The notes under the pieces: model-generated
The model's input: the letters and a program-made list of their open reading frames with translations, nothing else
Database searches by the model: none
Told to the model about the DNA's origin: nothing
Part shown: positions 1,041 through 18,912 of the stretch, piece after piece
How the letters are laid out: each line of letters starts with the position of its first letter
Numbering within the stretch: the stretch's first letter is position 1
Program-made: the position numbers and the translations under genes
Assembly: GCA_947499725.1 (NCBI GenBank)
Contig: CANMPK010000006.1
Coordinates: forward strand, 40,590-104,589
DNA: 64,000 nt
Origin: an uncultured Paracoccaceae bacterium
GTDB lineage: Bacteria > Pseudomonadota > Alphaproteobacteria > Rhodobacterales > Rhodobacteraceae
Direction: 5' to 3'

Positions 1041-1051
1041 AGCTTCCGGTG

Positions 1052-3722: not shown

Positions 3723-4760
3723 ATGAAAAAGAATACGACACTTGCAATTGCAGTGGGTCTTGCGGGCGCAGCCTTGGCTCCAACTGCATCATTCGCGCAG
3801 AGCGCGACGGTTCAGCAGATTATGGATCGCGGGACTATGTTGTGCTCTGGCCACAACGGTAGCTACTTCGGTTTTGTCGAAGTGAACGACAAGAACGAAT
3901 GGAAGGGTCTTGATATCGACCTTTGCCGTGCAATGACCACCGCGATTCTTGGTGATCCAGACAAGGCGCAAATTGTGCCGCTTAGCTGGGCCCAACGTTT
4001 CCCTGCACTTCAGTCCGGCGATGTCGATATCATTATTAAGGCGACAGGTTGGACAATGGGCCGCGATACAGAGCTTGGTCTTCAGTTCAGCTTGCCTTAC
4101 TTCTTTGGTGGGACACAGTTCATGGTCCACGGTGATCTGGGTATCTCGGACTCGTCCGGCCTCGAAGGCGGTACCGTTTGTGTTGAAGCGGGTACAACGA
4201 TTGAACGTATTTCCGCAAACTACCTTCAGACCGCTGGCGTTGAGCACACCATGGTGTCCTACGAAAGCGCGGCTGAACTTCGTGCGGCATATCTTGCAAA
4301 TCGCTGTGATGCCTTTGCGGGTTGGGGCCCAAGTCTGGCGGTTCTACGCGCGACCGAACTCGATAACCCAGACGCACACGTCATTCTGAATGACCAACTC
4401 TCGAGCGAGCCAATCGCAGCAGCAATGCGTCAAGGCGATGAAGGTTTCGTTGATATGGCGAACTGGACAATCGCGGCGCTTTTGATTGCCGAAGAAGAAG
4501 GCGTCACCTCTGCGAATGTCGAAGAAATGGCCGCAACACCTCCGAACCCTAAGGTGGCACGCCTTCTTGGTGTTGAACCGGGAATGGGCGAGCGTCTTGG
4601 CATCCGTGATACTTGGGCGCGTGAAATGATCGCAGCAGTTGGTAACTTCGGTGAAATCTACGATCGAAACCTCGGTTCTGAAAGCCCGTACAATCTTGAG
4701 CGTGGCTTGAACAATCTCTGGAGCCACGGCGGCGTTCTTTACGCTCCGATCCTTGACTAA
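3723..4760 (+). CDS. aapJ: Polar amino-acid ABC transporter, periplasmic binding protein
   Basis: 345-residue solute-binding protein of the AapJ/BztA type (general L-amino-acid / Glu-Gln-Asp-Asn class) delivering substrate to the AapQM permease. The N-terminus MKKNTTLAIAVGLAGAALAPTASFAQS is a clear Sec signal peptide with cleavage after SFAQ. The SBP_bac_3 fold follows, with VNDKNEWKGLDIDLCRA, WAQRFPALQSGDVDII and GTTIERISANYLQ. Length matches AapJ (about 340). It has a strong AAGGAG Shine-Dalgarno sequence and is the first gene after a perfect inverted-repeat operator. aapQ and aapM follow directly, but the ATPase is absent here and is found at 21951. The actual ligand may be unusual given the sulfur and hydantoinase genes of the island. 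Confidence 0.9.
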   Translation: MKKNTTLAIAVGLAGAALAPTASFAQSATVQQIMDRGTMLCSGHNGSYFGFVEVNDKNEWKGLDIDLCRAMTTAILGDPDKAQIVPLSWAQRFPALQSGDVDIIIKATGWTMGRDTELGLQFSLPYFFGGTQFMVHGDLGISDSSGLEGGTVCVEAGTTIERISANYLQTAGVEHTMVSYESAAELRAAYLANRCDAFAGWGPSLAVLRATELDNPDAHVILNDQLSSEPIAAAMRQGDEGFVDMANWTIAALLIAEEEGVTSANVEEMAATPPNPKVARLLGVEPGMGERLGIRDTWAREMIAAVGNFGEIYDRNLGSESPYNLERGLNNLWSHGGVLYAPILD

Positions 4761-4817
4761 ACAGTATATGGACCGCCCAATCGATATTGGGCGGTTCACT
4801 TATATTTGGGGGCTAAT

Positions 4818-5954
4818 ATGACGACAACAGAAGTGCTTCGAAAGAAGAGTAGACAGCGAAAAATTACGATACAAGTATTGCTTGTTATCATCTCAATCAT
4901 AGCGATTTGGGGGGCAGTGAGCAGTGCCCAAGTCAACCTTGCTGCGCTAGGAATTACGAACGGTTTTGGGTTTTTAGATCGCAGTACAGGCTGGGACTAC
5001 AGCTTTTCTCTGGTCGAGCGATCCATCAATGATCCCTATTCAAAGACTTTGGTAATAGGATTTCAAAATACGATTTTCGTCGGTTTTATTTCCATCTTTT
5101 TTGCAACGATTTTTGGCTTCATCATCGGAACTGGACGCGATTCATCCCATCCTGGCGTGAAGGCCGCCGCAACAGTTTTTGTTCAAACGTTCCGTAATAT
5201 TCCTTTGATTTTGCAAGGCGTTTTCCTTTACTCAGTTCTCATACATTTCCCAGGACCGCGCCAATCCATGTCATTCGCTGACAGTGTATTTTTGTCAAAT
5301 CGTGGGCTTATGTTGCCAGGCTTAAATGTATCGCCTAGCGTCGCGGTCGCTTTGATTTTGGCCATAGCTAGCGTGGCTGTGCTTTTGGTGTGGAGAAAGG
5401 TGCCTTTGCTGCGTGGTTTGATAATTTGGATTGCTGCGGCCATCTCGATGTCTGTGATTGTTGCGTTTGTGATGCGTCCCGAGGGTGAGCCGTTGTTGTC
5501 AATCCCATCATTGAAAGGGCTTCGATTTAATGGGGGCATAACCGTTTCTATTGAACTCGTAGCGATGATCACAGCGATCACATTGTACGGAAGTGCGTAT
5601 ATCGCAGAAGTTGTGCGCGGTGGCCTCAAACAAGTGCCCAGTGGTTTGATTGAAGCGGGGCAGGCTGTGGGACTAACACAAGGTCAAATTTGGCACCGCA
5701 TCAAGATGCCCATGTCGCTACGCAGCATCATTCCGCCATTGGGCAATCAGTGGATTTTCATCATGAAAGCCACCACCATCGGTATCGCTATTGGCTTTAG
5801 TGATATGTTCTACATTGTATCGAATTCCATTACGCAATCTGGGCAGACGCTTGAACTTATCTTCTTGTTGATGGCGGCGTTTCTTACCGTGAATTTTTCA
5901 ATCTCAATTTTTACGAATTGGTTGAACAATCGACTAAAGCTAAAGGCACACTAA
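4818..5954 (+). CDS. aapQ: Polar amino-acid ABC transporter permease AapQ-like
   Basis: 378-residue inner-membrane permease. After a basic N-terminus (RKKSRQRK) and a first membrane segment come a periplasmic loop, several hydrophobic spans and the conserved cytoplasmic EAA loop: GGLKQVPSGLIEAG followed by AVGLTQGQIWHRIKMP. The long N-terminal part and total size (near 400) match AapQ/BztB rather than the short HisQ-type permeases. The ORF track starts at a TTG (4806), but the ATG at 4818 follows TTGGGGGC and is preferred. It lies 57 bp after aapJ and 1 bp before aapM, so the three genes form one operon. Confidence 0.9.
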   Translation: MTTTEVLRKKSRQRKITIQVLLVIISIIAIWGAVSSAQVNLAALGITNGFGFLDRSTGWDYSFSLVERSINDPYSKTLVIGFQNTIFVGFISIFFATIFGFIIGTGRDSSHPGVKAAATVFVQTFRNIPLILQGVFLYSVLIHFPGPRQSMSFADSVFLSNRGLMLPGLNVSPSVAVALILAIASVAVLLVWRKVPLLRGLIIWIAAAISMSVIVAFVMRPEGEPLLSIPSLKGLRFNGGITVSIELVAMITAITLYGSAYIAEVVRGGLKQVPSGLIEAGQAVGLTQGQIWHRIKMPMSLRSIIPPLGNQWIFIMKATTIGIAIGFSDMFYIVSNSITQSGQTLELIFLLMAAFLTVNFSISIFTNWLNNRLKLKAH

Positions 5955-5955
5955 G

Positions 5956-7038
5956 ATGGCACATACTCAAAAATTATCTCCCAACCGCTTTCACGCCTAT
6001 ATGGCGTCTTTCTCAAAACGCGCTTTCGGGACCCCATCTGCAGCAGTTTTGTCCATCGTCATTTTTGGCGCTCTCGGGTATTGGACTTGGCTTGCGGTTG
6101 ATTGGGCCATTTTTCGAGCGGTGTGGTCCGCCGAAAATGTTGCCCACTGTACCGAAGAGGCGGGTGCCTGTTGGTCTGTGATTGATGCGCGCCATCGCCT
6201 GATCCTCTTCGGTCTTTATCCCTATGAGGAACATTGGCGATCTACATTTGCTTGCCTGTCCATTATTGCGACAGTGATCATTTCTTGTTTTCCGGCCACC
6301 TGGACGGCGAAGCGACTCACAAGCCTTTGGGTGGCAGGATTTGCTGCATATTATCTCCTGATGGAAGGGAGCTTGCTGGGCCTTGCGCAGGTTACAACGG
6401 ATGGGTGGGGCGGGCTTTCCCTCACGTTATTTCTGTTTGCGTCTGTTGTTCTATTGGGCATGCCTATGGGGCTTGGCTTGGCGTTGATGCGCCGCTCTGA
6501 GATGCCTGTTGTGCGTAGCTTTGCGGTGATCGTGATCGATACAATTCGTTCATTGCCTCTTTTGACTACACTGTTTACCGCGGCTGTCGTCGTTCCAATC
6601 CTTTTGCCAAGCTGGCTTGAAGGTGACAAGATTTGGCGCGTTATCATCGCGTTTTCTTTGTTCTTTGGCTGTTATCAGGCCGAAGTTTTCAGAGGCGGTT
6701 TTCAGGCCATTCCGAAAGGGCAATTCGAAGCCGGCAAGGCCCTTGGTATAGGGTATTGGAAGATCATGGCGCGCATCATTTTGCCGCAAGTGTTCCGCCA
6801 TGCTTTGCCAAGTACCATCAATATGGTTGTTGTGACGTTTAAAGAGACAGCCATCGTGATCATCATCGGCTTCTTTGATGTACTGGCATCGGCCAAGGCT
6901 GCTTTCGGGACAGGCGAGTGGGCGCCGCATTACATGGAGGTCTATGTCTTTGTCGGTGCGATATATTGGACATTCATCTTTTCGCTCGGCCAGTATGGCG
7001 AGTATTTGAAAGGAAGAATGGCCTTATCGACGCACTAG
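5956..7038 (+). CDS. aapM: Polar amino-acid ABC transporter permease AapM-like
   Basis: 360-residue second permease. It has the AapM/BztC layout: an N-terminal membrane helix, a Trp/Cys-containing periplasmic stretch (CTEEAGACWSV), an LFGLYPYEEHWR motif and C-terminal spans carrying the EAA loop GGFQAIPKGQFEAGKALG then YWKIMARIILPQ. It forms the heterodimeric channel with AapQ and would need an AapP-type ATPase, which in this window is only at 21951. The start follows the aapQ stop by one base (translational coupling). A strong bidirectional terminator follows at 7058. Confidence 0.9.
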   Translation: MAHTQKLSPNRFHAYMASFSKRAFGTPSAAVLSIVIFGALGYWTWLAVDWAIFRAVWSAENVAHCTEEAGACWSVIDARHRLILFGLYPYEEHWRSTFACLSIIATVIISCFPATWTAKRLTSLWVAGFAAYYLLMEGSLLGLAQVTTDGWGGLSLTLFLFASVVLLGMPMGLGLALMRRSEMPVVRSFAVIVIDTIRSLPLLTTLFTAAVVVPILLPSWLEGDKIWRVIIAFSLFFGCYQAEVFRGGFQAIPKGQFEAGKALGIGYWKIMARIILPQVFRHALPSTINMVVVTFKETAIVIIIGFFDVLASAKAAFGTGEWAPHYMEVYVFVGAIYWTFIFSLGQYGEYLKGRMALSTH

Positions 7039-7117: not shown

Positions 7118-7333
7118 TTACGAATTCAAATATCCAGCAATGAGTGCAACAAAGGCCCCGATGTGCACGACCATCAGCGCTCGGTCCCTCCACATAAATC
7201 CAACGACAAACCACAGCACGATACCGATGACAAAGGCCGCAATATTCCACGGCACGATATTCATCCCCGTCAAGGCATATCCAATAAGTTGCACGACCGT
7301 CGCAATCCATTTGATCACATCTACGCGTTCCAT
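7118..7333 (-). CDS. Small membrane protein next to the persulfide dioxygenase
   Basis: 71-residue hydrophobic protein, starting MERVDVIKWIATVVQLIGYA and ending AGYLNS. Two to three membrane helices are evident: residues about 8-26, 28-48 (PWNIAAFVIGIVLWFVVGF) and 52-69, with WRDRALMVVHI between the last two. I suspect it matches a small roseobacter family of unknown function (DUF6552-like), but this cannot be verified here. It is the last gene of the minus-strand operon metC-like / VOC / persulfide dioxygenase, 30 bp after the dioxygenase stop. That position suggests a membrane role in the sulfur branch, for example an anchor or a small transport or redox accessory. No function is known. Confidence 0.7.
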   Translation of the reverse strand: MERVDVIKWIATVVQLIGYALTGMNIVPWNIAAFVIGIVLWFVVGFMWRDRALMVVHIGAFVALIAGYLNS

Positions 7334-7363
7334 ATCTTTACTCTTTCGTTATTTCGTTAGGGA

Positions 7364-8248
7364 TCACAACGCATCAATTGGCACAGTAAGCGTCATGTTA
7401 CCGTCTTTATCTTTGGGAACTTCGCCGGCGCGCATATTGACTTGGAGCGACGGAATAATCAGTTTTGGCATGCCAAGGGTCGCGTCGCGGGCTTCGCGCA
7501 TGGAGACGAACTCTTCACGAGACGCCCCTTCACCAACATGGATATTCGCTTTCTTTTGTGCGCCGATGGTCGTCTCCCAACGGATTGCGCGCCCATTGGG
7601 GCCGTAGTCGTGACATACAAACAGTCGCATTTCTTCAGGGAGAGCAAGAACGCGTTCGATTGAATCGAACAACTCACCGGCATCGCCTCCAGGAAAATCC
7701 GCCCGCGCGGACCCGCCATCTGGCATGAATAATGTATCACCCGTAAAGACCGCATCCCCTATGACATGCACCATACAGGCCGGCGTATGTCCGGGCGTAT
7801 GCATGGCAAAACAAGTCATTTTTCCGACATTATAAACCTGATTGTCCGTGAACAGACAGTCGAACTGTGTGCCGTCCCGTTGGAATTCGGTGCCAGCATT
7901 AAAGATCTTTCCAAAGGTTTCTTGCACAGTCAGGATATGTTCACCGATCCCGATTTTACCGCCCAGTTTTTTCTGTATATAGGGCGCGCCAGATAGGTGA
8001 TCTGCGTGAACATGTGTTTCAATAATCCATTCAAGTCTAAGCCCGCGTTCGGTTATGAATGCGATGATCTGATCCGCGGTATCAAAGCTGAGGCGTGCAG
8101 CCGCGTAATCAAATTGCATGACAGCATCAATGACCGCGCAAGACGTGCTTGCGGGGTCTTTGATGACATAGCTTATTGTGTTGGACTGCGCATCGAAGAA
8201 TGCCGTTACGTCTGGCTTTTGATCCAGAGATGCAATTGGATGTTCCAT
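7364..8248 (-). CDS. MBL-fold persulfide (sulfur) dioxygenase-like protein, Blh/ETHE1 family
   Basis: 294-residue metallo-beta-lactamase-fold protein predicted to oxidise glutathione persulfide (GSSH + O2 to GSH + sulfite) in the cytoplasm. The metal-binding THVHADHLSG motif (His79, His81, Asp83, His84), the later GHTPACMVHV and FTGDTLFMPDGGSARADFPGG blocks and the CHDYGPNGR motif are typical of Blh/persulfide dioxygenases rather than glyoxalase II. It sits 15 bp after the VOC gene in a four-gene minus-strand unit beginning with a C-S lyase-like PLP enzyme. A rhodanese (13392) and a SulP transporter (22733) in the same island complete a sulfide-disposal route. Roseobacters often carry a BigR repressor with this gene; none is seen here. 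Confidence 0.85.
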   Translation of the reverse strand: MEHPIASLDQKPDVTAFFDAQSNTISYVIKDPASTSCAVIDAVMQFDYAAARLSFDTADQIIAFITERGLRLEWIIETHVHADHLSGAPYIQKKLGGKIGIGEHILTVQETFGKIFNAGTEFQRDGTQFDCLFTDNQVYNVGKMTCFAMHTPGHTPACMVHVIGDAVFTGDTLFMPDGGSARADFPGGDAGELFDSIERVLALPEEMRLFVCHDYGPNGRAIRWETTIGAQKKANIHVGEGASREEFVSMREARDATLGMPKLIIPSLQVNMRAGEVPKDKDGNMTLTVPIDAL

Positions 8249-8263
8249 GCCCGTCTTCCTTTT

Positions 8264-8902
8264 CTAATCGAGAGTTACAGCGCCTTTTGGTGTACTTAGA
8301 TCAAAGGACAACGCGGCGGGGCCCTCGCTGACATTGGCCAAGTGATCGACCTTGAGTGCTTTCAAAACTTCCAACAGTTCAGACGGGTTTGGGTGGGCCA
8401 ATTGAACCTTGTCCAAGGTCACGCCCAAATCTTGTTGGCCTGTGCTTGGATGGGGCCCTGGCGACCATTCGATGAACGCAGGCAACAAACCTCCCATCGG
8501 CAAGCTTCCGTCTTTTGGTACAGTCAAACGCCATGAGCGATCACCGCGCGTGAACAGTACCACTTCGCCCAGATCCACGGGGCTCGCGGCGATGACCGCA
8601 TCCAGATCGTCGGTCCCAACGACCCAGCACAATGCACGAGGACGGGTTTTTAGGCGGGCTTGGGTGGCACGGTCATCCAGCGTGAACCAACGTACCCGTC
8701 CTGGATCGGCTGGTGCGTCGGGATCGATCGCGATAAGTTCAAAGAAGCTCTCGTTGCCTGATTGCATCACACAATTATGCGTGCTCATCGCGTCGTGTTT
8801 GCCGCCGCGTGGAACTTCGACGCCAAGGACGTCCTTCAGGCTTTCGATACCTTGCTCCAAGCTGTCGGCGCCAATCGCAAAGTGGTCAATTTTGTTGTGC
8901 AT
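8264..8902 (-). CDS. VOC-superfamily (glyoxalase-like domain) protein
   Basis: 212-residue cytoplasmic protein of the vicinal-oxygen-chelate superfamily, glyoxalase_3-like type. The N-terminus KIDHFAIGADSLEQGIESL is the usual betaalphabeta start with the metal-ligand His, and HNCVMQSGNESFFELIAIDP carries a typical C-terminal Glu ligand. A second, weaker half begins near LGVTLDKVQLAHPNP. Members of this group are isomerases, lyases or dioxygenases of small organic acids and cannot be assigned from sequence. It lies between the PLP lyase (25 bp) and the persulfide dioxygenase (15 bp) in one operon, so it may act on a thiol adduct or an intermediate of the sulfur branch. Confidence 0.8.
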   Translation of the reverse strand: MHNKIDHFAIGADSLEQGIESLKDVLGVEVPRGGKHDAMSTHNCVMQSGNESFFELIAIDPDAPADPGRVRWFTLDDRATQARLKTRPRALCWVVGTDDLDAVIAASPVDLGEVVLFTRGDRSWRLTVPKDGSLPMGGLLPAFIEWSPGPHPSTGQQDLGVTLDKVQLAHPNPSELLEVLKALKVDHLANVSEGPAALSFDLSTPKGAVTLD

Positions 8903-8927
8903 TTGGGCACTCCGTTTTGATGGTAAA

Positions 8928-10103
8928 CTATGAATTCAAAAGAGGTAACGCGGCCTGCAGGTCTGCTTTCAGGCTATCTGTGTCTTCAAGGCCGATGTTA
9001 AACCGCACCAAGGCACCGGTCTCAGTCCAAGCTTTCGCGCTGCGCATGGGGTCAACGGGCAATACAAGGCTCTCGTATCCACCCCAGCTCACGCCGATAC
9101 CAAAATGATGCAGGGCGTCGACAAAATCGCGGATTTGTGCCGCGCTGCAGGGGTGAAAAATCACGGAGAACAGACCTGCGGCGCCGGTGAAGTCACGCTT
9201 CCAGAAATCGTGGCCGGGGCAACTCTCAAAGGCTGGGTGCAGAACAGTCTTTACTTGTTTTTGTTGTCCCAGCCATGTCGCGATTTCACGGCCGGCCTTG
9301 TCAAAATACTCCATGCGGACCTTAAGCGTTCTAAGCCCGCGCAAGGCGAGGAAAACTTCGTGTGATCCTGGCTTGTCGCCGATTGCAAAAACGGTCTTAC
9401 GTATCTGATCATGGTACATGGTATTGCTCGCGATCATGCCCATCATGCAATCTGAATGCCCGCTGATGTATTTTGAGCAAGAGGCGACCACGACATCGCA
9501 GCCCAGATCAAGGGGTTTGCAAAACAACGGCGTGGCCCAAGTGCTATCGATAATCGAGGGGATAGAGGCATCGCGTGCGGCTTTTGCAATGGCCGGAATG
9601 TCAGGTATTTCAAAGGTGCCCGACCCTGGGGCTTCGAGCATAATGGCGCAGGTTGTTTCACGAATTAAATCGTAGATATCTGTGCCGATCATGGGATCGT
9701 AGTATTCAATCTCAACGCCCATGCGGCTCAAAACGCCATCACAAAAGGCGCGCGTGTTGCCGTAGACGTGATCGGCGACCAATAGGTGTTTTCCCGGGGC
9801 AACGAATGTCATCAACGCCGTAGAGATGGCCGCCACGCCGGATGATGTTAAGGTGACACCGCGTGCGTTTTCGAGATTGGCAAGTAGCGCTTCCAGTTGA
9901 AATGAGGCGTCATTTCCATACCGCCCATAGTAAAGGGTACCGGATGCGTAGCGCGCATCGCGTGCGCTCTCAAAACTTGCCATACTGTCAAAGACAATCG
10001 TCGAGCCAAGCTCAATAGGCATGTTAACATGACGACCATCGACACGGGGAGGCCTACCGTTTTGCACGAGAGCATCGGCGTTATTTCTTGTATCTGAAGG
10101 CAT
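8928..10103 (-). CDS. metC: Cys/Met-metabolism PLP-dependent lyase (cystathionine beta-lyase type)
   Basis: 391-residue fold-type I PLP enzyme of the trans-sulfuration family. PLP-binding features include YYGRYGNDAS, TSSGVAAISTALM, the Asp-containing IPSIIDSTWATP and the Schiff-base Lys211 in SCSKYISGHSD. The spacing fits MetC/cystathionine beta-lyase, whose members also act as cysteine desulfhydrases, releasing sulfide and 2-aminoacrylate (then pyruvate and ammonia). It leads the minus-strand operon with the VOC protein and persulfide dioxygenase and is divergent from bisC. In this context a catabolic C-S lyase feeding sulfide or persulfide to the dioxygenase is more likely than methionine biosynthesis. 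The RidA protein at 21591 would hydrolyse the enamine product. The symbol denotes family only. Confidence 0.8.
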   Translation of the reverse strand: MPSDTRNNADALVQNGRPPRVDGRHVNMPIELGSTIVFDSMASFESARDARYASGTLYYGRYGNDASFQLEALLANLENARGVTLTSSGVAAISTALMTFVAPGKHLLVADHVYGNTRAFCDGVLSRMGVEIEYYDPMIGTDIYDLIRETTCAIMLEAPGSGTFEIPDIPAIAKAARDASIPSIIDSTWATPLFCKPLDLGCDVVVASCSKYISGHSDCMMGMIASNTMYHDQIRKTVFAIGDKPGSHEVFLALRGLRTLKVRMEYFDKAGREIATWLGQQKQVKTVLHPAFESCPGHDFWKRDFTGAAGLFSVIFHPCSAAQIRDFVDALHHFGIGVSWGGYESLVLPVDPMRSAKAWTETGALVRFNIGLEDTDSLKADLQAALPLLNS

Positions 10104-10150: not shown

Positions 10151-10190
10151 CTACTGTGTCAATATGCAGAAAATATGTTCACTATAGCAG
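10151..10190. promoter_or_regulatory. Divergent metC-like/bisC control region with shared TGTCAATA motif
   Basis: The 101-bp gap between the divergent genes contains CTACTGTGTCAATAT (10151-10165) and, 12 bp on, TTCACTATAGCAG (10178-10190), a degenerate inverted copy. The 12-mer CTGTGTCAATAT (10154-10165) recurs exactly, in reverse orientation, in the rhodanese/FAD-oxidase gap (13833-13844). TGTCAATA is also in the aapJ operator. On the minus strand it reads ATATTGACACAG, so it may double as a TTGACA -35 element for the metC-like operon. Confidence 0.45.
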
Positions 10191-10204
10191 CACGTGAGAG
10201 TTGA

Positions 10205-12541
10205 ATGCCTAAGATTGAAACAAAGATTACTGCAAGCCACTGGGGCGTTGGTGTCGCTGTGGTTGAAGATGAAAAAATTCAATCGGTCGCTGGGCATTGC
10301 GAGGATCCAAATCCGTCGCGGATCAACGATAATATCGCAAGCAGCTTGCATGGCGATGCGCGTATCACGCGTCCAGCCGTGCGCAAATCATGGCTTGAGA
10401 ACGGTCCCGAAGGGCGCGGTACAAGCGGCGAAACAGCACGCGGTCGCGATGGCTTTGTCGAAGTCAGTTGGGATACGGCTCTCGATTTGATTGCCAAAGA
10501 ACTTAGACGTATTCGTAAGGCGTATGGGAATGGAGCAATTTTTGCCGGTTCATATGGTTGGTCAAGCGCCGGACGCTTTCATCACGCCCAGAGTCAACTG
10601 AAGCGTTTTTTGAACACGCAGGGCGGGTTCGTGCGTTCAGAGGGTAACTATAGCTATAATGCGGCCCTTGTCCTGATGCCGCATATCGTTGGGCCGTACC
10701 GACAACATGTTGTGGACGCGACCCGCTGGCCGGTCATTGCCAAACACAGCGATCTTGTTGTGTGTTTTGGTGGCATCGCACAGCGCAATACTCAAGTCAG
10801 CGATGGTGGCGTTGCGCGTCATCGGATGAAAGATAACTTGACCCTATGCAAGGACGCGGGCGTTGAGTTTGTCAACATCAGCCCATTGCGCAGCGATATC
10901 TTAGAGACACTTGATGCTGTCTGGATGCCACCATTGCCGGGTTCTGACACTGCATTGATGTTGGGGCTCGCGCATACCTTGCTAACCGAAGGTCTGCATG
11001 ATGTTTCGTTTTTGGATAAATACACCGTCGGCTTTGACCGCGTCGCAGCGTACATTCTGGGCAAAACCGATGGCCAGCCAAAAGACGCCGCTTGGGCTGC
11101 GGCACAATCGGGAATCGACGCCGAAGACATTGCGGCCCTCGCTCGAAAAATGGCGTCGTCCCGTACGATGATCAGTATTGCCGCGGGGGTACAGAGGGCA
11201 GATTATGGCGAACAACCCCTTTGGATGGGAGTGACTTTGGCAGCGATGCTGGGGCAAATCGGCTTACCTGGTGGCGGATATGTGATTGGGTACGGCGTGA
11301 ACGCGAACATCGGGAATGTAGAGCGCCCATTTCGGTGGGGCGCCTTTTCACAACTCAAGAACCCGCACGATGACTTTATCCCAGTCGCGATGATTTCCGA
11401 GATGTTACTAAGTCCCGGGAAAAGCTATGATTACAACGGGCGTAAACGGAAATTCCCCCATGCGCGTATGGTCTGGTGGGCCGGAGGAAACCCTTTTCAT
11501 CATCACCAAGACCTGAATAGGTTACACGAGGCGTTCCAGGCCCCCGACACCGTGATTGTGAATGAGCTGAATTGGACCGCAACCGCGCGTCATGCGGATA
11601 TCGTTTTGCCGATTGCGTCTGCGCAAGAACGTACAGACTTTGGCGCAGGGAAATCAGACAATGCCCTTGTTCCGATGCCAGCACTAATCAAGCCGGTGGG
11701 CGAGGCGCGGATGGAATATGACATCTATGCAGACCTCGCAGGGCGTCTTGGAAATGCCGAGGCGTTTACGGAGGGGCGCAGCAGTGAAGACTGGTTGCGG
11801 TGCATTTGGCAACAAACGCAATCTACGGCTTCGAAGGCCGGTATTGATCTGCCGAACTGGGATGAATTTATCTCTGGGGACGTTGTGCATGTGCCAGATC
11901 CAGCGCCTGAGCAAGTATTTCTGGACAAATTTCGTGCCGATCCGGTGGCAAATCCCTTGTCGACCCCAAGCGGTCGCATCGAGCTATTCTCGCAAACCAT
12001 TGCGTCGTTTGGTCGCCCTGACTGCCCAGGCCATGCGGCGTGGTTCGCGCCACGGGATGTGGCAGCCGGAGCGGAACAAAAATACCCACTGTATATGTTG
12101 TCGGGGCAACCAAAAACGCGGTTGCACAGCCAGCTTGATAATGGCGACTATAGTAAAAGCCATAAGATCAAGGATCGCGAGCCGGTGCTGCTTCATCCAA
12201 GAGATGCGGCTGAGCGTGGGATTGAGCATGGAGATATCGTTGAGCTCTACAATGATCGCGGGCGTTGTCTTGCTGGTGCAAAAATAACCGATGAAGTCCG
12301 CGAGGGCTGTGTCTTTTTGTGGACGGGAGCTTGGTATGATCCCGATTTCAATGCGCCGCAAAACCGTGATCGACATGGAAATCCGAATGTTTTAACCCAT
12401 GATCTTCGCACATCGTCCCTTAGTCAAAGCACGGCGGCACATTCAACCTTGTTGAATGTACGTAAGTTTGAAGGTGTATTGCCAAAAATCACGGCTCATT
12501 CAGCTCCTGACTTCCTGTTTCGGAATGAACCTGATACTTGA
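10205..12541 (+). CDS. bisC: BisC-type molybdopterin sulfoxide reductase (cytoplasmic)
   Basis: 778-residue molybdenum enzyme of the DMSO-reductase family, subgroup BisC/TorZ. There is no Tat signal and no N-terminal [4Fe-4S] cysteine motif: the protein starts MPKIETKITASHWGVGVAVV. The molybdenum-ligand region GSYGWSSAGRFHHAQSQLKR carries the Ser-type site of DMSO/TMAO/biotin-sulfoxide reductases. Further cofactor blocks are GGIAQRNTQVSDGGVA, WWAGGNPFHHHQDLNRL, VNELNWTATARHADIVLP, MLSGQPKTRLHSQLDNG and the C-terminal molydop-binding domain. It probably reduces a sulfoxide, such as methionine- or substrate-S-oxide, in the cytosol. It is co-directional with the IclR gene 21 bp downstream and divergent from the PLP lyase. 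That links sulfoxide reduction to the sulfur branch; biotin sulfoxide itself need not be the substrate. Confidence 0.85.
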   Translation: MPKIETKITASHWGVGVAVVEDEKIQSVAGHCEDPNPSRINDNIASSLHGDARITRPAVRKSWLENGPEGRGTSGETARGRDGFVEVSWDTALDLIAKELRRIRKAYGNGAIFAGSYGWSSAGRFHHAQSQLKRFLNTQGGFVRSEGNYSYNAALVLMPHIVGPYRQHVVDATRWPVIAKHSDLVVCFGGIAQRNTQVSDGGVARHRMKDNLTLCKDAGVEFVNISPLRSDILETLDAVWMPPLPGSDTALMLGLAHTLLTEGLHDVSFLDKYTVGFDRVAAYILGKTDGQPKDAAWAAAQSGIDAEDIAALARKMASSRTMISIAAGVQRADYGEQPLWMGVTLAAMLGQIGLPGGGYVIGYGVNANIGNVERPFRWGAFSQLKNPHDDFIPVAMISEMLLSPGKSYDYNGRKRKFPHARMVWWAGGNPFHHHQDLNRLHEAFQAPDTVIVNELNWTATARHADIVLPIASAQERTDFGAGKSDNALVPMPALIKPVGEARMEYDIYADLAGRLGNAEAFTEGRSSEDWLRCIWQQTQSTASKAGIDLPNWDEFISGDVVHVPDPAPEQVFLDKFRADPVANPLSTPSGRIELFSQTIASFGRPDCPGHAAWFAPRDVAAGAEQKYPLYMLSGQPKTRLHSQLDNGDYSKSHKIKDREPVLLHPRDAAERGIEHGDIVELYNDRGRCLAGAKITDEVREGCVFLWTGAWYDPDFNAPQNRDRHGNPNVLTHDLRTSSLSQSTAAHSTLLNVRKFEGVLPKITAHSAPDFLFRNEPDT

Positions 12542-12562: not shown

Positions 12563-13333
12563 ATGACAGATACGCCGCCTAAGACGCCCAAAGTTGACTC
12601 TACCCTCTCCAAGGGATTGAGCATTCTTGAAAACTTGGCACATGCCCCATCAGGCAAGGGCGTTACCGAGTTATCGGTGGAGTTGGGTCTTACGAAATCT
12701 AACACATTTCGCCTTTTGCAGAGTCTCACAACACTTGGATATGTCAAACACTTGGAAAGCAAAGCTTATGCCGCGACGTTGAAGACGTGGCAAATTGGAC
12801 GAGCTTCGGTTGATAATTTGAACCTGCGCGAACTGGCCGCGCCTGAGATGTCATTCCTGTCCAAGGAAACCGGCGAGACGATTTATCTGGCCGTTCCTGA
12901 ACATCTTGGGATCGTCTATATAGATAAGATTGAGAGCCAAAAACCCATCCGGTCTTGGAGCCCGATTGGCGGCGAAGCGCCGATTCATTGCGTGGGTACC
13001 GGGAAGGCCATCTTGGCGGCGAATTATGGTAGCATGCGCGAACGCATTAAGGGGCAACTGACCCGACATACGGAAAAGACAATATCCTCTATTGCGGCCC
13101 TTGATGATGATATGAATGCGACGCTTGCCCGAGGATATGCCGTAGACCAAGGCGAATTTCGCGAGCGCATTTGGAGTCTTGGGGCAGCGATTACGCTTCC
13201 CAGTGGAGAAAGCATAGCGTCGTTGGGGATTTCGTTGCCAGATGTGAGTATGCCCGAAAACGGGTTAGATAGATATGGATCTTTGGTTGCCAATTGCGCC
13301 GAAAGCGTATCTGCGAAACTGGCGCGCCGCTAA
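12563..13333 (+). CDS. IclR-family transcriptional regulator
   Basis: 256-residue IclR regulator: an N-terminal winged helix-turn-helix (about residues 13-75, LSKGLSILENLA, VTELSVELGLTKSNTFRLLQSLTTLGYV), then the effector-binding GAF-like domain (LRELAAPEMSFLSKETGETIYLAV, HCVGTGKAILA, RGYAVDQGEFRERIWSLGAAI). It is the second gene of the bisC unit and sits centrally among the island's divergent promoters, so it is the best candidate to control them, with a substrate or pathway intermediate as ligand. A strong terminator follows. The start ATG comes after CGGAGGATGAACC, a strong Shine-Dalgarno sequence. Confidence 0.92.
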   Translation: MTDTPPKTPKVDSTLSKGLSILENLAHAPSGKGVTELSVELGLTKSNTFRLLQSLTTLGYVKHLESKAYAATLKTWQIGRASVDNLNLRELAAPEMSFLSKETGETIYLAVPEHLGIVYIDKIESQKPIRSWSPIGGEAPIHCVGTGKAILAANYGSMRERIKGQLTRHTEKTISSIAALDDDMNATLARGYAVDQGEFRERIWSLGAAITLPSGESIASLGISLPDVSMPENGLDRYGSLVANCAESVSAKLARR

Positions 13334-13349: not shown

Positions 13350-13393
13350 CTGTTTCGCGCCTTCTTTGTAGAGTGCGCGAAACAGAGTTTTTT
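13350..13393. terminator. Rho-independent terminator after iclR
   Basis: CTGTTTCGCGC (13350-13360) pairs perfectly over 11 bp with GCGCGAAACAG (13375-13385), followed by AGTTTTTTAG. It overlaps the stop codon of the convergent rhodanese gene. Confidence 0.9.
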
Positions 13394-13793
13394 AGCCCTT
13401 CTTTTCAGGAAATTCGACTGAACCGCCTTGTTTTTCCCAAGTGGAGAAACCTTCTTTGAGGTGAGCCGCTTCAAACCCCATGTCTTGGAGCGTGGCAACT
13501 GTTAGCGACGAGCGCCAACCTGAGGCGCAATGGAAGACAAACTTCTTATCTTCTCCAAAGATGTCCTTGAAATATGGGCTGTCTGGATCGACCCAGAATT
13601 CGATCATGCCACGCGGCGCGTGAAAGCTGCCAGGAATAAAACCTGTGCGCTGGCGTTCACGTGGGTCGCGAATGTCAACCACGACAACATTTGGATTTTC
13701 GAGCATCGCGATGAGGTCGGCGGTTTCGACTTCCTCAATGCGCGCTCTTGCGGCTTTCACCATGTCAGATGATGACAATTTGAGCTTTTTCAT
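13392..13793 (-). CDS. Rhodanese-domain sulfurtransferase
   Basis: 133-residue single-domain rhodanese. The N-terminal linker MKKLKLSSSDMVKAARARIEEV precedes VVVVDIRDPRERQRTGFIPGSFHAPRG and the active-site loop FHCASGWRSS (Cys89 carrying the persulfide), then AAHLKEGFSTWEKQGG. It probably transfers sulfane sulfur, for example to glutathione or sulfite, feeding or relieving the persulfide dioxygenase. The ORF track begins at 13982, but the ATG at 13793 has a strong ribosome-binding site (ACGGAGGTCTTT) and matches family starts; the upstream 63 residues are promoter DNA. It is divergent from the FAD-oxidase operon and convergent with iclR. Confidence 0.88.
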   Translation of the reverse strand: MKKLKLSSSDMVKAARARIEEVETADLIAMLENPNVVVVDIRDPRERQRTGFIPGSFHAPRGMIEFWVDPDSPYFKDIFGEDKKFVFHCASGWRSSLTVATLQDMGFEAAHLKEGFSTWEKQGGSVEFPEKKG

Positions 13794-13807
13794 AAAGACC
13801 TCCGTGC

Positions 13808-13844
13808 TGATATATAGAACTTGTATATCATATATTGACACAGA
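13808..13844. promoter_or_regulatory. Divergent rhodanese / FAD-oxidase control region
   Basis: TGATATA (13808-13814) and TATATCA (13824-13830) form a 7-bp dyad with a 9-bp spacer. It is followed directly by ATATTGACACAG (13833-13844), the exact reverse complement of the 12-mer in the metC-like/bisC gap. TTGACA at 13835-13840 points toward the FAD-oxidase gene and could be its -35, but no good -10 follows. Shared control with the sulfur operon is inferred. Confidence 0.45.
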
Positions 13845-13904: not shown

Positions 13905-15179
13905 ATGAGTGCACAAAATGCAATTTCGCTTTGGAACGCCACGGCGATTGAAGAAGATTTTCATGCGCCGCTCGATACGCAAGGTATCTTGGATGTCGTG
14001 ATTATCGGCGGTGGGTTCACCGGGTTATCATCAGCGCTTCATTGCGCCGAGCAGGGACTGTCGGCGCATGTGCTTGAGGCGAATCAAATCGGTTTCGGTG
14101 GGTCAGGACGCAACTGTGGGCTGGTAAATGCCGCGCTTTGGTTGCCACCCCAAAAAGTGCGTGAGAAATTGGGACCGGTATATGGTCCGCGTTTCATCGA
14201 TATGTTCGGTCAAGGCCCAGGGTATGTGTTTTCTCTAATTGAAAAGCACCAAATCCGCTGTGAAGTGACCAAAACTGGGACAATTCATGGTGCGCATGCC
14301 CCTTCAGGTTTTCGCGACCTACAGGACCGCCACAAAGAGTGGCAGCGCCTGGGTCAGCCAGTGGATCTGCTATCGCGTGAGGAGGTATCCGAGAAATTGG
14401 GCACGACTGTGTTCCATGGTGGCCTTTTGGATCACCGCGCCGGCACGATAAACCCAATGGGCTATGTGCGAGGACTTGCACGTGCGGCGCTCGGAGCCGG
14501 TGCGAAAATAAGCACCAAGGTCCGCGCGACCAAATTATCCAAAGAAGGTGATCTGTGGATCGTTGAAACGGATAAGGGCACAGTGAAAGCTAAGGCGGTT
14601 GTTCTGGGAACCAACGCTTACACGGATGACCTATGGCCAGGCTTGAAGCAGAACTTTACGTTGATCAATTACTTTCAACTCGCCACCAAGCCGCTGGGGC
14701 CAGAGGCCGCGCATATTATGCCCGAAAAACAGGGTTTGTGGGATACCGGTCAGATCATGTTTAATGTGCGCCGCGATGCATACGATCGCCTGCTGATTGG
14801 ATCTATGGGTAAGGTCATGGGTGATATTAATGGCGGCGTTTCACAGCGTTGGGCGCGCAAACAAATCGCGCGTTTGTTCCCAACACTTGGCCCCGTCGAG
14901 TTCGAAGAGGCGTGGACAGGGCAAATTGCAATGACACCAGATCATCTGCCCCGCATTCATGAGCTTGATAAAAATCTATTCACGCCAATTGGTTACAATG
15001 GTCGTGGTATCACAACCGGTACGATGTTTGGGCGCACGATGTCGCAATTATTGACCGGCATGGATCGTGCAGATCTGCCGCTACCTATGACGGACCCATC
15101 GACAGTGAAATCTGCTCCTGTCTTTTCGCGCTTGTACCAAACGGCGTTCACAGCAAAACAAATCTTGAAAGCAATTTGA
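13905..15179 (+). CDS. FAD-dependent amine/amino-acid oxidoreductase (DadA/PuuB-like)
   Basis: 424-residue DAO-family flavoenzyme. The dinucleotide-binding motif is in DVVIIGGGFTGLSSALHCAEQG (residues about 30-50), followed by GFGGSGRNCGLVN, KAVVLGTNAYTDDLWPG and the C-terminal FAD block PIGYNGRGITTGTMFGR. The family oxidises secondary or D-amines to imines (sarcosine, D-amino acids, gamma-glutamylputrescine), passing electrons to O2 or a quinone. It is the first gene of the plus-strand operon, with the hydantoinase A gene 2 bp downstream, so it probably starts breakdown of the imported compound by oxidising a C-N bond. The substrate cannot be read from sequence. The start follows TTTGAGGTAGGGAATCTAT. 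Confidence 0.85.
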   Translation: MSAQNAISLWNATAIEEDFHAPLDTQGILDVVIIGGGFTGLSSALHCAEQGLSAHVLEANQIGFGGSGRNCGLVNAALWLPPQKVREKLGPVYGPRFIDMFGQGPGYVFSLIEKHQIRCEVTKTGTIHGAHAPSGFRDLQDRHKEWQRLGQPVDLLSREEVSEKLGTTVFHGGLLDHRAGTINPMGYVRGLARAALGAGAKISTKVRATKLSKEGDLWIVETDKGTVKAKAVVLGTNAYTDDLWPGLKQNFTLINYFQLATKPLGPEAAHIMPEKQGLWDTGQIMFNVRRDAYDRLLIGSMGKVMGDINGGVSQRWARKQIARLFPTLGPVEFEEAWTGQIAMTPDHLPRIHELDKNLFTPIGYNGRGITTGTMFGRTMSQLLTGMDRADLPLPMTDPSTVKSAPVFSRLYQTAFTAKQILKAI

Positions 15180-15181
15180 CT

Positions 15182-17269
15182 ATGACACTGGCTTCTACAC
15201 GCGTCGGCGTGGATATCGGCGGCACCTTTACGGATGTTGCATTGCAACATGCGGGCGGGCTTTCGACGTGCAAAGTTCTGACCAACTACACTCAACCTGA
15301 ACAGGCGATTTTGGATGGAATTGCCTTGGCTTCCAAACAGGCTGGGATCGAATTGTCTGATATTGATCAAGTGATCCACGGCACCACTTTGGTGACGAAC
15401 TCTTTGATTGAGCGTCGCGGAGCAAAGCTGGCGTTTATCACGACCGAAGGTTTTCGCGACGTCATCGAAATGCGTTCTGAAAATCGGTTTGAGCAGTATG
15501 ACCTGAACCTTAACCTGCCAAAGCCGATGGTGCCTCGTCAGGATCGTTTCACATTGAATGAACGGATCGGCGCAAGTGGCGAGGTCCTGTTGCCGCTTGA
15601 GCAAGACGACGTGGACGCAATGGTACAAACCATTCTGGCCGGCGACTTTGAAGCCGTCGCGATTGGGTTGATGCACTCCTATGCCAATGATGCGCACGAA
15701 CGTCAGATGGCGGATGCATTGCGTACTGCGGCCCCTGATTTGTCGATTTCGATCTCATCTGTGATTTCGCCACAAATGCGCGAACTGCCACGGTTTAATA
15801 CAGTGATCGCAAACGCATATGTACAACCACAGGTCGCGGATTATCTTGGACGTTTGGTCGCCCGCCTTCGTGGCGCCGGCGTCGCGGCCCCAGTCTTTAT
15901 GTTACATTCTGGGGGTGGTTTGATTTCGGTAGAAACAGCCGCAGAACAGCCTGTCCGTCTGCTTGAATCTGGTCCCGCAGGGGGCGCAATTTTTGCCGCC
16001 GATTTTGCGCGGGCGCATGATCTCGACAAAGTCTTGAGCTTTGATATGGGGGGCACCACTGCCAAGATTTGCTTGATCGAAGATGGTGCGCCCAAGACGG
16101 CGAATACCTTCGAAGTCGCGCGTACATATCGTTTCAAAAAAGGCTCGGGCATGACCGTGTCCACACCCGTTGTTGAAATGGTCGAGATCGGCGCGGGAGG
16201 CGGTTCAATTGCGTCCATCGACAGCATGAACCGAATCCAAGTTGGACCTCGATCCGCGGCCTCAGAGCCAGGCCCGGCGTGCTATGGCCGAGGCGGAGAA
16301 GAGCCAACTGTGACGGATGCGAACCTGCTTTTGGGTCGCCTTGATCCAAACAATTTCGCGGGAGGTGCGATCCAACTGCACCCTGACGCATCGGACACTG
16401 CCGTGGCTGCGAAACTTGGCGAAACTTTGAGTATTACAAGCAGCGACGCCGCCTTTGGTGTTACTGAAATGGTTGACGAAAACATGGCCAACGCGGCGCG
16501 TGTTCACACGGTTGAAAATGGCCGTGATATTGAACATTTTACCATGATCGGTTTCGGAGGTGGGGCACCGCTTCATGCCTGTCGTCTCTGTGAAAAACTC
16601 GGCATACGTGATTTGATCATTCCGCCAGGTGCGGGTGTTGGTTCTGCGATTGGCTTCCTGAAGGCCCCCTTCAGTTATGAAGCTACGCGCGGATTGTTTC
16701 AGCAACTCGCTGATTTCAATGGCGCTGCAGTGAACTCAGCTTTGGCTGAGCTGGAGCAAGAGGCCCGCGCTTTTGTTGAAGCAGGGGCCAAGGACGCGGA
16801 TACCTCATCTAAACTGACTGCGTTTATGCGATATGCGGGGCAGGGTTGGGAAATCCCAGTGTCCCTACCGTACAAACCGTTTGCGGACTCGGATAAATCA
16901 GAGATCCAAGATGCGTTTGAAGCCGCATATGAAATGTTGTTTGGCCGGACCATCGATGGGCTTGCGATTGAAATCACCAACTGGTCGCTTGTGGTTGCAT
17001 CCGTGCTGCCTGATGTTGCAAAGGCCGCGCATTTCGCATCGGGAGATGCAGCAACAGAGCGACGGACACGTCAATTCTATGACGCTGCACTGCGAAGCAC
17101 CGTGGATGCGCGCGAAGTAGAGCGTAGCGAAATGAGCGCTGGGAAATCTGTCGAAGGCCCCGCCGTGATTATCGAAAATGAGACCACCACAATTGTCACA
17201 TCCGCCTATACGGCGATTGGCCAAGGCGACGGCAGCTTGCTGCTGCGCCGCAAGGGAGACGCACTATGA
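15182..17269 (+). CDS. hyuA: Hydantoinase/oxoprolinase subunit A (ATP-dependent ring opening)
   Basis: 695-residue HyuA/OplA-type subunit of ATP-dependent N-methylhydantoinase / 5-oxoprolinase enzymes. The N-terminal actin-fold ATPase start is clear (RVGVDIGGTFTDVALQH), with VIHGTTLVTNSLIERRGAKLAFITTEGFRDVIEMR. The second phosphate segment FDMGGTTAKICLI and the family motifs LESGPAGGAIFAADFA and GAGGGSIASID follow. With HyuB it would phosphorylate and hydrolyse a cyclic amide (hydantoin, 5-oxoproline or a sulfur analogue). The ORF track begins at a TTG overlapping the upstream stop; the ATG at 15182 is preferred. hyuB starts 4 bp before its stop (ATGA), so the two are translationally coupled. 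Confidence 0.88.
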   Translation: MTLASTRVGVDIGGTFTDVALQHAGGLSTCKVLTNYTQPEQAILDGIALASKQAGIELSDIDQVIHGTTLVTNSLIERRGAKLAFITTEGFRDVIEMRSENRFEQYDLNLNLPKPMVPRQDRFTLNERIGASGEVLLPLEQDDVDAMVQTILAGDFEAVAIGLMHSYANDAHERQMADALRTAAPDLSISISSVISPQMRELPRFNTVIANAYVQPQVADYLGRLVARLRGAGVAAPVFMLHSGGGLISVETAAEQPVRLLESGPAGGAIFAADFARAHDLDKVLSFDMGGTTAKICLIEDGAPKTANTFEVARTYRFKKGSGMTVSTPVVEMVEIGAGGGSIASIDSMNRIQVGPRSAASEPGPACYGRGGEEPTVTDANLLLGRLDPNNFAGGAIQLHPDASDTAVAAKLGETLSITSSDAAFGVTEMVDENMANAARVHTVENGRDIEHFTMIGFGGGAPLHACRLCEKLGIRDLIIPPGAGVGSAIGFLKAPFSYEATRGLFQQLADFNGAAVNSALAELEQEARAFVEAGAKDADTSSKLTAFMRYAGQGWEIPVSLPYKPFADSDKSEIQDAFEAAYEMLFGRTIDGLAIEITNWSLVVASVLPDVAKAAHFASGDAATERRTRQFYDAALRSTVDAREVERSEMSAGKSVEGPAVIIENETTTIVTSAYTAIGQGDGSLLLRRKGDAL

Positions 17270-18912
17270 GCCCGACAGCAATCGATTATCAAATCATGTG
17301 GAACCGCTTGATTGCGGTTGTCGAAGAACAAGCCACGACATTGATCCGAACCGCTTTTTCAACCTCAGTGCGCGAAGCGGGCGATTTGTCGGCAGGGCTT
17401 TTTGATCGCCAAGGCCGAATGATGGCGCAGGCGGTCACCGGCACGCCAGGTCACGTGAACGCAATGGCCGAGAGCGTGACGCATTTTGTACGTGAGCTGG
17501 GACTGGATAACGTATTTGAAAACGACGTTTTCATCACCAACGACCCATGGCTTGGCACGGGGCACCTTCACGACATTACGGTTGTGTCGCCAACGTTTCG
17601 CAACGGCCAACACATCGGTTTCTTTGCCTGTACTGCGCATGTTGTGGATATTGGTGGTCGGGGTTTTGGGCCTGACGCGAACGAAGTGTATGAAGAGGGT
17701 CTCTTGATCCCGATCATGAAGTTCGCCGAACGGGGAAACGTGTCCAAGGATCTTATCCGTATGGTGCGCTCTAACGTGCGTGAACCGGATCAAGTGGTCG
17801 GCGATCTTTATTCTCTAGCGGCCTGTAACGAGGCAGGGGATCGCCGCTTACAGACCATGATGGGCGAATTTGGCATCTCTGATCTGGAGGGTCTGTCGGA
17901 TTTCGTGATTGAGACATCGCGCAAAGCCACCCGTGAGGCCATCGCCAAAGTTCCCGATGGCACGTTTCGTCATTCTATGCAGGTGGATGGGTATGATGCA
18001 CCGGTCAATATGGTTGTGCGTTTGGATGTCGCTGGGGATAAAATCAAAGCCGATTTTGATGGTACCTCAGGCATGAGCCGCTTTGGCGTAAACGTTCCCG
18101 AGGTCTACACACGTGCCTATGCGTGCTATGGCTTGAAATGCGCGATTGCGGCAGAGGTGCCGAATAACACGGGTTCACTTGAACCCTTTGAAATTACCGC
18201 TCCTGAGGGATGCATCTTGGCCGCGCGTCGACCTGCTCCGGTTTCGGTGCGCCATGTCTTGGGACATTTGGTGCCTGATGTGGTGCTGGGCGCTTTGCAC
18301 CAAGCGATGCCCGACACAGTTCCCGCCGAGGGGGCAAGCGCACTTTGGAATATCCAAATTTCGGCACGCGCCAGTGACCCCGCAAGCGGTTTGCCGAATG
18401 CCGAGGTCCTGATGTTCAACTCTGGCGGGACAGGGGCCCGCCCAACATTGGACGGATTGTCTGCGACGGCCTTCCCATCTGGTGTGTCGACGATGAGCGT
18501 CGAAGCGACCGAGCACGTTGGCCCGATCACAGTGTGGCGAAAAGATCTTCGTGAGGGATCAGGCGGGGCGGGGGCCTTTCGGGGCGGCCTTGGTCAGAAC
18601 ATCGAAATCGAACCCCGCGAAGGCTATGACTTTTACTTTAACGCCATGTTCGATCGGGTGGAAAATCCCGCGCGCGGTCGCGAAGGTGGCCATGCGGGTG
18701 CCAAGGGACAGGTCGAACTTTCAGATGGCACCAAGATGAGAAGCAAGGGGCGCCAGTTGGTCAAAAATGGCCAACGTCTCAAACTCAGCCTCCCAGGAGG
18801 GGGCGGATATGGCGCGCCAAGCGCGCGCGACAAAACGGAAGTGGCCCAAGATCTGGCCGCTGGATTCATCACAGAAGAGCAAGCGACCGGCGTTTACGGT
18901 CTGAAAAAGTAG
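17266..18912 (+). CDS. hyuB: Hydantoinase/oxoprolinase subunit B
   Basis: 548-residue HyuB subunit, the partner of HyuA. Family motifs seen are WNRLIAVVEEQATTLIRTAFSTSVREAGDLS at the start, MMAQAVTGTPGHVNAMAESV, the metal-site segment FITNDPWLGTGHLHDITVVSP, and the C-terminal RGGLGQNIEIEP and LPGGGGYGAP blocks. Length (about 550) is normal for the two-subunit form. The ATGA overlap with hyuA and the 8-bp gap to the SDR gene place it inside a tight operon. Related complexes include acetone and acetophenone carboxylases, but the presence of only two subunits and of amine-oxidase and RidA neighbours favours a cyclic-amide hydrolase. Confidence 0.88.
   Translation: MSPTAIDYQIMWNRLIAVVEEQATTLIRTAFSTSVREAGDLSAGLFDRQGRMMAQAVTGTPGHVNAMAESVTHFVRELGLDNVFENDVFITNDPWLGTGHLHDITVVSPTFRNGQHIGFFACTAHVVDIGGRGFGPDANEVYEEGLLIPIMKFAERGNVSKDLIRMVRSNVREPDQVVGDLYSLAACNEAGDRRLQTMMGEFGISDLEGLSDFVIETSRKATREAIAKVPDGTFRHSMQVDGYDAPVNMVVRLDVAGDKIKADFDGTSGMSRFGVNVPEVYTRAYACYGLKCAIAAEVPNNTGSLEPFEITAPEGCILAARRPAPVSVRHVLGHLVPDVVLGALHQAMPDTVPAEGASALWNIQISARASDPASGLPNAEVLMFNSGGTGARPTLDGLSATAFPSGVSTMSVEATEHVGPITVWRKDLREGSGGAGAFRGGLGQNIEIEPREGYDFYFNAMFDRVENPARGREGGHAGAKGQVELSDGTKMRSKGRQLVKNGQRLKLSLPGGGGYGAPSARDKTEVAQDLAAGFITEEQATGVYGLKK

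Follow-up and report, generated by a model that had tools for sequence, protein, structure and literature searches.

A conserved lyase-VOC operon forms one arm of a larger roseobacter gene cluster that may degrade a cyclic thioether amino acid

The window analysed here, 64,000 nucleotides of contig CANMPK010000006.1 from an uncultured Paracoccaceae bacterium, carries at 7118-10103 four minus-strand genes encoding a MetC-like pyridoxal-phosphate (PLP) C-S beta-lyase (METC), a VOC protein, a persulfide dioxygenase (PDO) and a small membrane protein of the DUF6552 family. An earlier, sequence-only reading had described these four genes as a sulfur operon in which the lyase is coupled directly to the PDO, with the VOC and membrane proteins as unexplained partners. 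The layout, with gaps of 25, 15 and 30 bp, is confirmed; as a functional unit the four genes are too small. We find that the lyase operon belongs, as one of its arms, to a conserved cluster of some sixteen genes in marine roseobacters and their relatives, apparently an undescribed catabolic regulon built from known enzyme families. From family assignments and gene content we give even odds to the reading that this operon carries out C-S cleavage within an IclR-type regulon for the breakdown of a cyclic thioether amino acid, which most likely enters the cell as the S-oxide. Lyase and VOC protein belong to the core of the cluster, the PDO is optional and serves sulfur disposal, and DUF6552 has no part in the pathway.

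Scanning GTDB genomes with the lyase, together with searches of relatives, yielded 21 independent clusters from 20 genomes. Besides that of the window, another 18 are of the roseobacter type, one of them on a plasmid of Paracoccus seriniphilus, and two, from Rhizobiales, are of the Afipia type. The counts omit one extra genome, here called the twin, whose cluster is almost identical to that of the window. METC and VOC adjoin in all 21 clusters, and because their order is kept down to 59-62% identity in Rhizobiales the pairing is not a matter of chance; the VOC protein thus stands as a genuine, previously unassigned partner of the lyase. In the other clusters the lyase operon always lies divergent from or beside one set of genes, which is present in the window too (Table 1). 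Across the 18 other roseobacter-type clusters METC-VOC is syntenic with BISC, ICLR, RHOD, DAO, HYUA, HYUB, SDR, ACS and the transporter genes, with identities of 60-88%, and the two Rhizobiales clusters hold a subset of this set. HyuAB and the SDR dehydrogenase each occur in 20 of the 21 clusters, the FAD amine oxidase (DAO) and the rhodanese in 19 each and the acyl-CoA synthetase (ACS) in 18, being absent from both Afipia-type genomes. BISC is in place in 18, has been relocated in one more and is absent from the Paracoccus stretch. The minimal cluster, G1013, retains METC, VOC, ICLR, HYUA, HYUB and SDR, so that the lyase goes with the lactam-opening genes, which supports a direct tie between opening of the lactam and cleavage of the C-S bond.

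Alignment of the two divergent intergenic regions gave a 38-bp element with the consensus GTGCTGATATATAnAACAnnTATTCCnTATATTGACAC, the arms of which form an imperfect inverted repeat and the right arm of which holds a TTGACA −35-like box. The window contains exactly two copies where none is expected, these are the only ones in the complete 3.1-Mb genome to which the window belongs, and most cluster genomes have exactly two per cluster. A reversed control pattern had no match in the cluster genomes searched, and the element was not found in four genomes carrying the DAO-HyuAB module only. A matrix whose training set excluded the window, Afipia, G1013 and Paracoccus finds both sites in each of the window, the Paracoccus cluster and G1013, plus three in Afipia, with 32-58 bits against a best score of 8 in 22 unrelated loci. 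The Afipia sites lie between the lyase and BisC genes, at DAO and at the transporter binding-protein gene (SBP). In G488 an element outside the main cluster leads to the relocated BISC and ICLR, and in the two Afipia-type genomes one precedes a family III CoA-transferase (L190, 3039-3076; L192, 10071-10108). Since the lyase-VOC-PDO and DAO-HyuAB operons share the element, which tracks the cluster and its moved parts, we regard them as one regulon. IclR and the element are found together in all clusters examined, and on this ground the regulator is the likely reader of the element. Oligopeptide-type ABC transporter genes lie near the CoA-transferase of L190 and L192.

The lyase matches PF01053 (E 2.4e-95) and scores 412 bits on TIGR01324, above the cut-off of 365.9. 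Its catalytic motifs are intact (YGRYG at 59, SKYISGH at 210 with the PLP lysine at 211, SWGG at 339 and LVRFNIGLE at 365). Orthologues of 62-75% identity are seen in this cluster only and are missing from most relatives, a distribution and context that argue for catabolism over methionine biosynthesis. In Rhizobium and in the PS1 clade, distant lyase homologues (42-48%) lie by related amino-acid transporters; they were not used, because no BisC, DAO, HyuAB or VOC matches accompany them. The VOC protein matches PF13468 (Glyoxalase_3) with E 1.7e-33 and 116.6 bits against a gathering score of 25.1, and its AlphaFold model (pLDDT 95) has the paired beta-alpha-beta VOC fold. A plain sequence search found no solved homologue from which a function could be read; a profile search of solved structures matched 3p8a alone, a protein of unknown function, and the nearest structures in Foldseek (3p8a, methylmalonyl-CoA epimerase and HPPD) are generic VOC matches. 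Ten residues are invariant in 39 relatives (H7, H36, N43, E55, R71, W72, D76, W93, R119 and W124), and E145 is invariant within the cluster group only. Judged by sequence, H7 and E55 would belong to a four-residue metal site whose third position is apparently W93. The constant placement next to the lyase suggests that the VOC protein may act on the lyase's thiol product or a CoA ester of it.

The PDO follows VOC in nine of the 21 clusters (the window and eight others). It matches PDB chains 9g8t, 4efz and 4ysk with E about 1e-93 to 1e-103 (4ysk, 2.4e-93) and has the metal-site residues of its family (H79-V-H-A-D-H, fitting HxHxDH, with H150, D171 and H213). On the Blh equivalog NF040641 it falls short, with 357 of 625 bits and model positions 139-423 matched, corresponding to the C-terminal part without the N-terminal sulfurtransferase part. 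A PDO-like gene is present in all 17 cluster genomes searched, usually elsewhere in the genome when not in the cluster. A C-S lyase operon can therefore include a PDO, as had been proposed, but direct coupling of the two enzymes is not supported, since the PDO is missing from 12 clusters although all 17 searched genomes hold such a gene.

The small membrane protein is a clear DUF6552 member (PF20189, E 1e-28, 99.9 bits against a gathering score of 27) and was rejected as a component of the pathway. It occurs in only three of the 21 clusters (the window, L129 and L127), and lies on the PDO strand in the window and on the opposite, transporter strand in L129 and L127; in L127 an insert of roughly 1.1 kb splits the gene. 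Elsewhere it lies tens to a few hundred bases from aldehyde-dehydrogenase-like, LysR or S10-operon ribosomal-protein genes. Its co-conservation with PDO genes, which the sequence-only reading had put forward as a check, does not hold: DUF6552 scores above cut-off in 48 of 249 genomes of the family, and a PDO is near in just three of about 52 occurrences (the window, its twin and G128), as judged in the stretches fetched around matches, a few of which ended at contig ends. DUF6552 behaves as a passenger gene, and our search of the literature found no paper on it. The S10-operon neighbourhood was seen in four genomes, at about 8.7-9.1 kb in three 18-kb loci (L034, L077 and L079) and at 1.6-1.8 kb in L035.

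Table 1. Genes and predicted regulatory elements of the cluster in the window.
Feature	Position	Strand	Details
Amino-acid ABC transporter binding protein, family 3 (SBP)	3723..4760	+	PF00497; PDB 4z9n
ABC permease 1	4806..5954	+	PF00528; conserved
ABC permease 2	5956..7038	+	50-81% identity to permeases of other clusters
DUF6552 small membrane protein	7118..7333	-	71 aa; PF20189; passenger, outside pathway
Persulfide dioxygenase (PDO, Blh/PDO2-like), metallo-beta-lactamase fold	7364..8248	-	294 aa; PF00753; optional gene
VOC protein (Glyoxalase_3)	8264..8902	-	212 aa; PF13468; core gene, always directly downstream of METC
MetC-like PLP C-S beta-lyase (METC)	8928..10103	-	391 aa; PF01053, TIGR01324; core gene
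38-bp operator/promoter element, predicted	10156..10193	-	METC/BISC divergent promoter; GTGCTGCTATAGTGAACATATTTTCTGCATATTGACAC
BisC-family molybdopterin S/N-oxide reductase	10205..12541	+	TIGR00509, 922 bits; PDB trimethylamine N-oxide and dimethyl sulfoxide reductases
IclR-family regulator	12563..13333	+	PF01614, PF09339
Rhodanese-domain protein	13392..13796	-	PF00581; active-site loop CASGWR
38-bp operator/promoter element, predicted	13804..13841	+	RHOD/DAO divergent promoter; GTGCTGATATATAGAACTTGTATATCATATATTGACAC
FAD amine oxidase (DAO), L-pipecolate-oxidase-like	13905..15179	+	PF01266; NF050086, 447 bits
HyuA, ATP-binding subunit, ATP-dependent lactamase/hydantoinase	15176..17269	+	PF05378, PF01968; NF050156 (CapA)
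HyuB, metal-binding subunit	17266..18912	+	PF02538
SDR dehydrogenase	18921..19673	+	PF13561
Propionate/acetate-CoA-ligase-like acyl-CoA synthetase (ACS)	19679..21598	+	PF00501; NF007815, 725 bits
RidA-family imine/enamine deaminase	21591..21935	+	PF01042, 6e-24
Amino-acid ABC transporter ATPase, GlnQ-like	21951..22688	+	PF00005
SulP sulfate-permease-family transporter	22730..24466	+	TIGR00815

Several of the larger set resemble characterised enzymes while scoring below the curated cut-offs, and for that reason we did not file BisC as a TIGR00509 member (cut-off 1017.55 bits; the match spans the full model), DAO as the L-pipecolate oxidase AmaA (cut-off 600) or HyuA as a caprolactamase (455 bits against 1000). 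BisC has no visible signal peptide. HyuA matches N-methylhydantoinase and 5-oxoprolinase/CapAB structures in the PDB, and the HyuAB pair carries the phosphate motifs (DIGGTFTD at 13, DMGGT at 290) and metal motifs (HLHD at 100 and H125, as in CapB), with SEPGP instead of GxxPGP as the adenosine motif. RidA is conserved between ACS and the ATPase gene wherever that stretch of a cluster was fetched, and fits a route producing 2-aminoacrylate or an imine. The binding-protein gene is conserved and convergent to the lyase operon. In the Afipia transporter operon the single extra gene encodes an ornithine-cyclodeaminase/mu-crystallin protein (a ketimine reductase); among PDB entries it is closest to 4bv8, a thiomorpholine-carboxylate dehydrogenase/mu-crystallin (E 3.5e-68). 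In two relatives, too, a SulP gene accompanies the cluster, lying there next to SBP, and the transporter is a possible exit or entry route for oxyanions. An EhuR-like regulator and nitrilase/MSMEG_0572 genes at 1-3164 were rejected as members, being conserved in the twin genome only.

The analysis establishes which genes are present, their co-conservation, the element they share and the dispensability of PDO and DUF6552; the order of steps that we propose was put together from the enzyme families and the genes at hand. An ABC transporter for amino acids would take up the cyclic thioether amino acid, BisC would reduce its S-oxide, DAO would oxidise the ring amine to an imine and the SDR would oxidise the hydrated imine (a hemiaminal) to a lactam, which HyuAB would open with ATP to give an S-(carboxyalkyl)-L-cysteine. 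The lyase would split this into 2-aminoacrylate and a mercapto-acid. RidA would convert the former to pyruvate and ammonia, and the acyl-CoA synthetase (or the CoA-transferase III of Afipia-type genomes) would activate the latter; the VOC protein may act on the lyase product or on its CoA thioester. Sulfide or persulfide set free would be disposed of by a PDO, whether its gene lies in the operon or at another locus, perhaps with help from the rhodanese. Our best single guess at the substrate is thiomorpholine-3-carboxylate S-oxide (chondrine). Thiomorpholine-3-carboxylate is the thia-analogue of pipecolate, and if the guess is right ring opening would yield S-carboxymethylcysteine, which corresponds, as a thia-analogue, to the 2-aminoadipate formed from pipecolate. 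Relatives of HyuAB hydrolyse lactams (PMC8453981), and enzymes of the thiomorpholine-carboxylate dehydrogenase type form such rings from ketimines (PMC7545470). The Afipia ketimine reductase, which was found after the ring hypothesis had been formed, is supportive of a ring substrate and is not proof. That the whole amounts to an undescribed pathway of marine roseobacters and some Rhizobiales, mineralising a chondrine-type S-oxide through ATP-dependent opening of a sulfur-ring lactam, a C-S lyase and a VOC protein of new function, is a possibility that we advance tentatively and with some doubt.

Several points weigh against this proposal. The ketimine reductase occurs in one genome only and also resembles pyrroline/piperideine-2-carboxylate reductases. 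BisC and DAO are each missing from one or two clusters, and DAO, HyuA and BisC all lie under their NCBIfam cut-offs. The substrate of the module need not contain sulfur, because DAO-HyuAB-SDR-rhodanese also stands alone, without METC, VOC or BISC, in other Rhodobacteraceae (L160, L162 and L164-L166). Thioglycolyl-CoA has no obvious desulfurisation route; an acyl-CoA ligase would better suit 3-mercaptopropionate and therefore a larger ring. A search of the open literature found no paper on catabolism of thiomorpholine-carboxylate or of chondrine, a compound that occurs naturally in algae.

Other readings of the cluster were weighed. If the substrate were thiazolidine-4-carboxylate (thioproline), DAO and SDR would produce 2-oxothiazolidine-4-carboxylate, HyuAB would convert this to cysteine and CO2, the lyase would desulfhydrate the cysteine, and rhodanese and PDO would take the sulfide. 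HyuAB has relatives among the 5-oxoprolinases, for which 2-oxothiazolidine-4-carboxylate is a substrate, the rhodanese is tied to HyuAB even in lyase-free clusters, and a cysteine-like product would account for the PDO; this route leaves the acyl-CoA ligase or CoA-transferase and the VOC protein unexplained, and the Afipia ketimine reductase indicates a six-membered ring, so we judge it unlikely. The original proposal, spelled out, would be a stand-alone desulfurisation and detoxification operon, with the lyase turning cystine or cysteine into thiocysteine or sulfide and the PDO oxidising glutathione persulfide to sulfite. Cleavage of cystine is known for enzymes of the cystathionine beta-lyase type and gives cysteine persulfide, from which a PDO substrate can arise, and lyase and PDO share an operon in the nine clusters named above. 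The PDO is absent from the other 12, whereas HyuAB and SDR are present in 20 of the 21 and stand under the shared element, and a cystine route has no need of BisC, DAO, HyuAB or the acyl-CoA ligase; we consider it quite improbable.

S-alk(en)yl-cysteine sulfoxides such as methiin, or their gamma-glutamyl peptides, would give work to BisC as the reductase, to the lyase in cleaving S-alkylcysteine and to HyuAB as a 5-oxoprolinase for the glutamyl part, and all three enzymes are present. The conserved genes include neither a gamma-glutamyl cyclotransferase nor a peptidase, DAO, SDR and the acyl-CoA ligase would be unexplained, and BisC is lacking from the Paracoccus stretch, which makes such substrates very unlikely in our judgement. 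That the lyase is a biosynthetic cystathionine beta-lyase of methionine synthesis lying by chance beside a PDO is scarcely credible: it passes the TIGR01324 equivalog cut-off and the Paracoccus seriniphilus copy is annotated metC, but its orthologues are confined to the catabolic cluster, missing from most relatives, and it is co-regulated with DAO-HyuAB through the shared element.

Some further observations concern the module and its relatives. The rhodanese stays with the stand-alone DAO-HyuAB-SDR module despite a possibly sulfur-free substrate, and no consistent extra gene that could name the substrate was found among the neighbours of that module. The rhodanese gene also stays divergently paired with HyuAB without DAO, SDR or sulfur genes (L169, L171 and L172; also L160 and L164-L166), which suggests a direct functional link between rhodanese and lactamase/hydantoinase. 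Related HyuAB proteins (about 61% identity) are widespread in the order, with more than 100 genomes carrying one. Those of L173 and L175 are accompanied by LysR, DAO and a further gene (an NAD-dependent epimerase in L173), possibly as a separate DAO-HyuAB system. The cluster in L138 (9959-13751) is decaying: lyase and VOC are frameshifted, DAO-HyuAB-SDR-ACS is gone, the permease and binding-protein genes are shortened and the PDO is intact. On the Paracoccus seriniphilus plasmid METC-VOC is followed on the same strand (L195, 15779-18774) by genes whose annotations read hypotaurine-pyruvate aminotransferase and aldehyde dehydrogenase, and these lack a 38-bp element of their own. Elsewhere in the window, at 46824-51008, two open reading frames of more than 1380 aa overlap nearly wholly on opposite strands, and one is presumably an antisense artefact.

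If the proposed pathway is real, marine bacteria recycle a kind of organic sulfur that is new, a VOC family so far without known function gains a role, and the 38-bp element together with METC-VOC offers a ready marker for tracing the pathway. Should the guess at the substrate prove wrong, the boundary of the regulon is still firm enough for direct testing in type strains, of which Leisingera aquimarina DSM 24565, Primorskyibacter sedentarius DSM 104836, Paracoccus seriniphilus DSM 14827 and Marinovum algicola FF3 bear the cluster, and it corrects the reading of lyase, PDO and small membrane protein as one unit.

The individual parts invite comparison with known systems. The lyase shares its fold and catalytic residues with MetC cystathionine beta-lyase and cysteine-S-conjugate beta-lyase (PDB 1cl1, 21kb); unlike MetC it is confined to a catabolic cluster, and its likely substrate is an S-carboxyalkyl-cysteine rather than cystathionine. 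With the ETHE1/Blh/PDO2 persulfide dioxygenases (4ysk/4ysl, 4efz) the PDO shares fold, metal-site motif and C-terminal region at high full-length similarity, but unlike Blh it is a stand-alone domain without a fused sulfurtransferase, and it lies in a lyase-VOC operon and not in one for sulfide oxidation. In Pseudomonas L-pipecolate catabolism (AmaA/AmaB) an FAD oxidase acts on the cyclic imino acid and a dicarboxylic amino acid is then formed. The proposed route is alike in the FAD oxidase step leading from cyclic imino acid to dicarboxylic amino acid, with the difference that an SDR and an ATP-dependent lactamase would stand in for the aldehyde dehydrogenase and that a C-S lyase then follows. 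HyuAB resembles the CapAB caprolactamase of Pseudomonas jessenii (PMC8453981), an ATP-dependent lactamase, in having two subunits, the ATP motifs and the conserved His/Asp residues of the metal site, while its HyuA score lies far under the CapA cut-off and its expected substrate is a sulfur-ring lactam. Finally, as in the methanethiol oxidase route of Rhodobacteraceae (PMC10936201), the breakdown of an organosulfur compound would feed sulfane sulfur metabolism within the same family, but here C-S cleavage would be the work of a PLP lyase acting on an amino acid.

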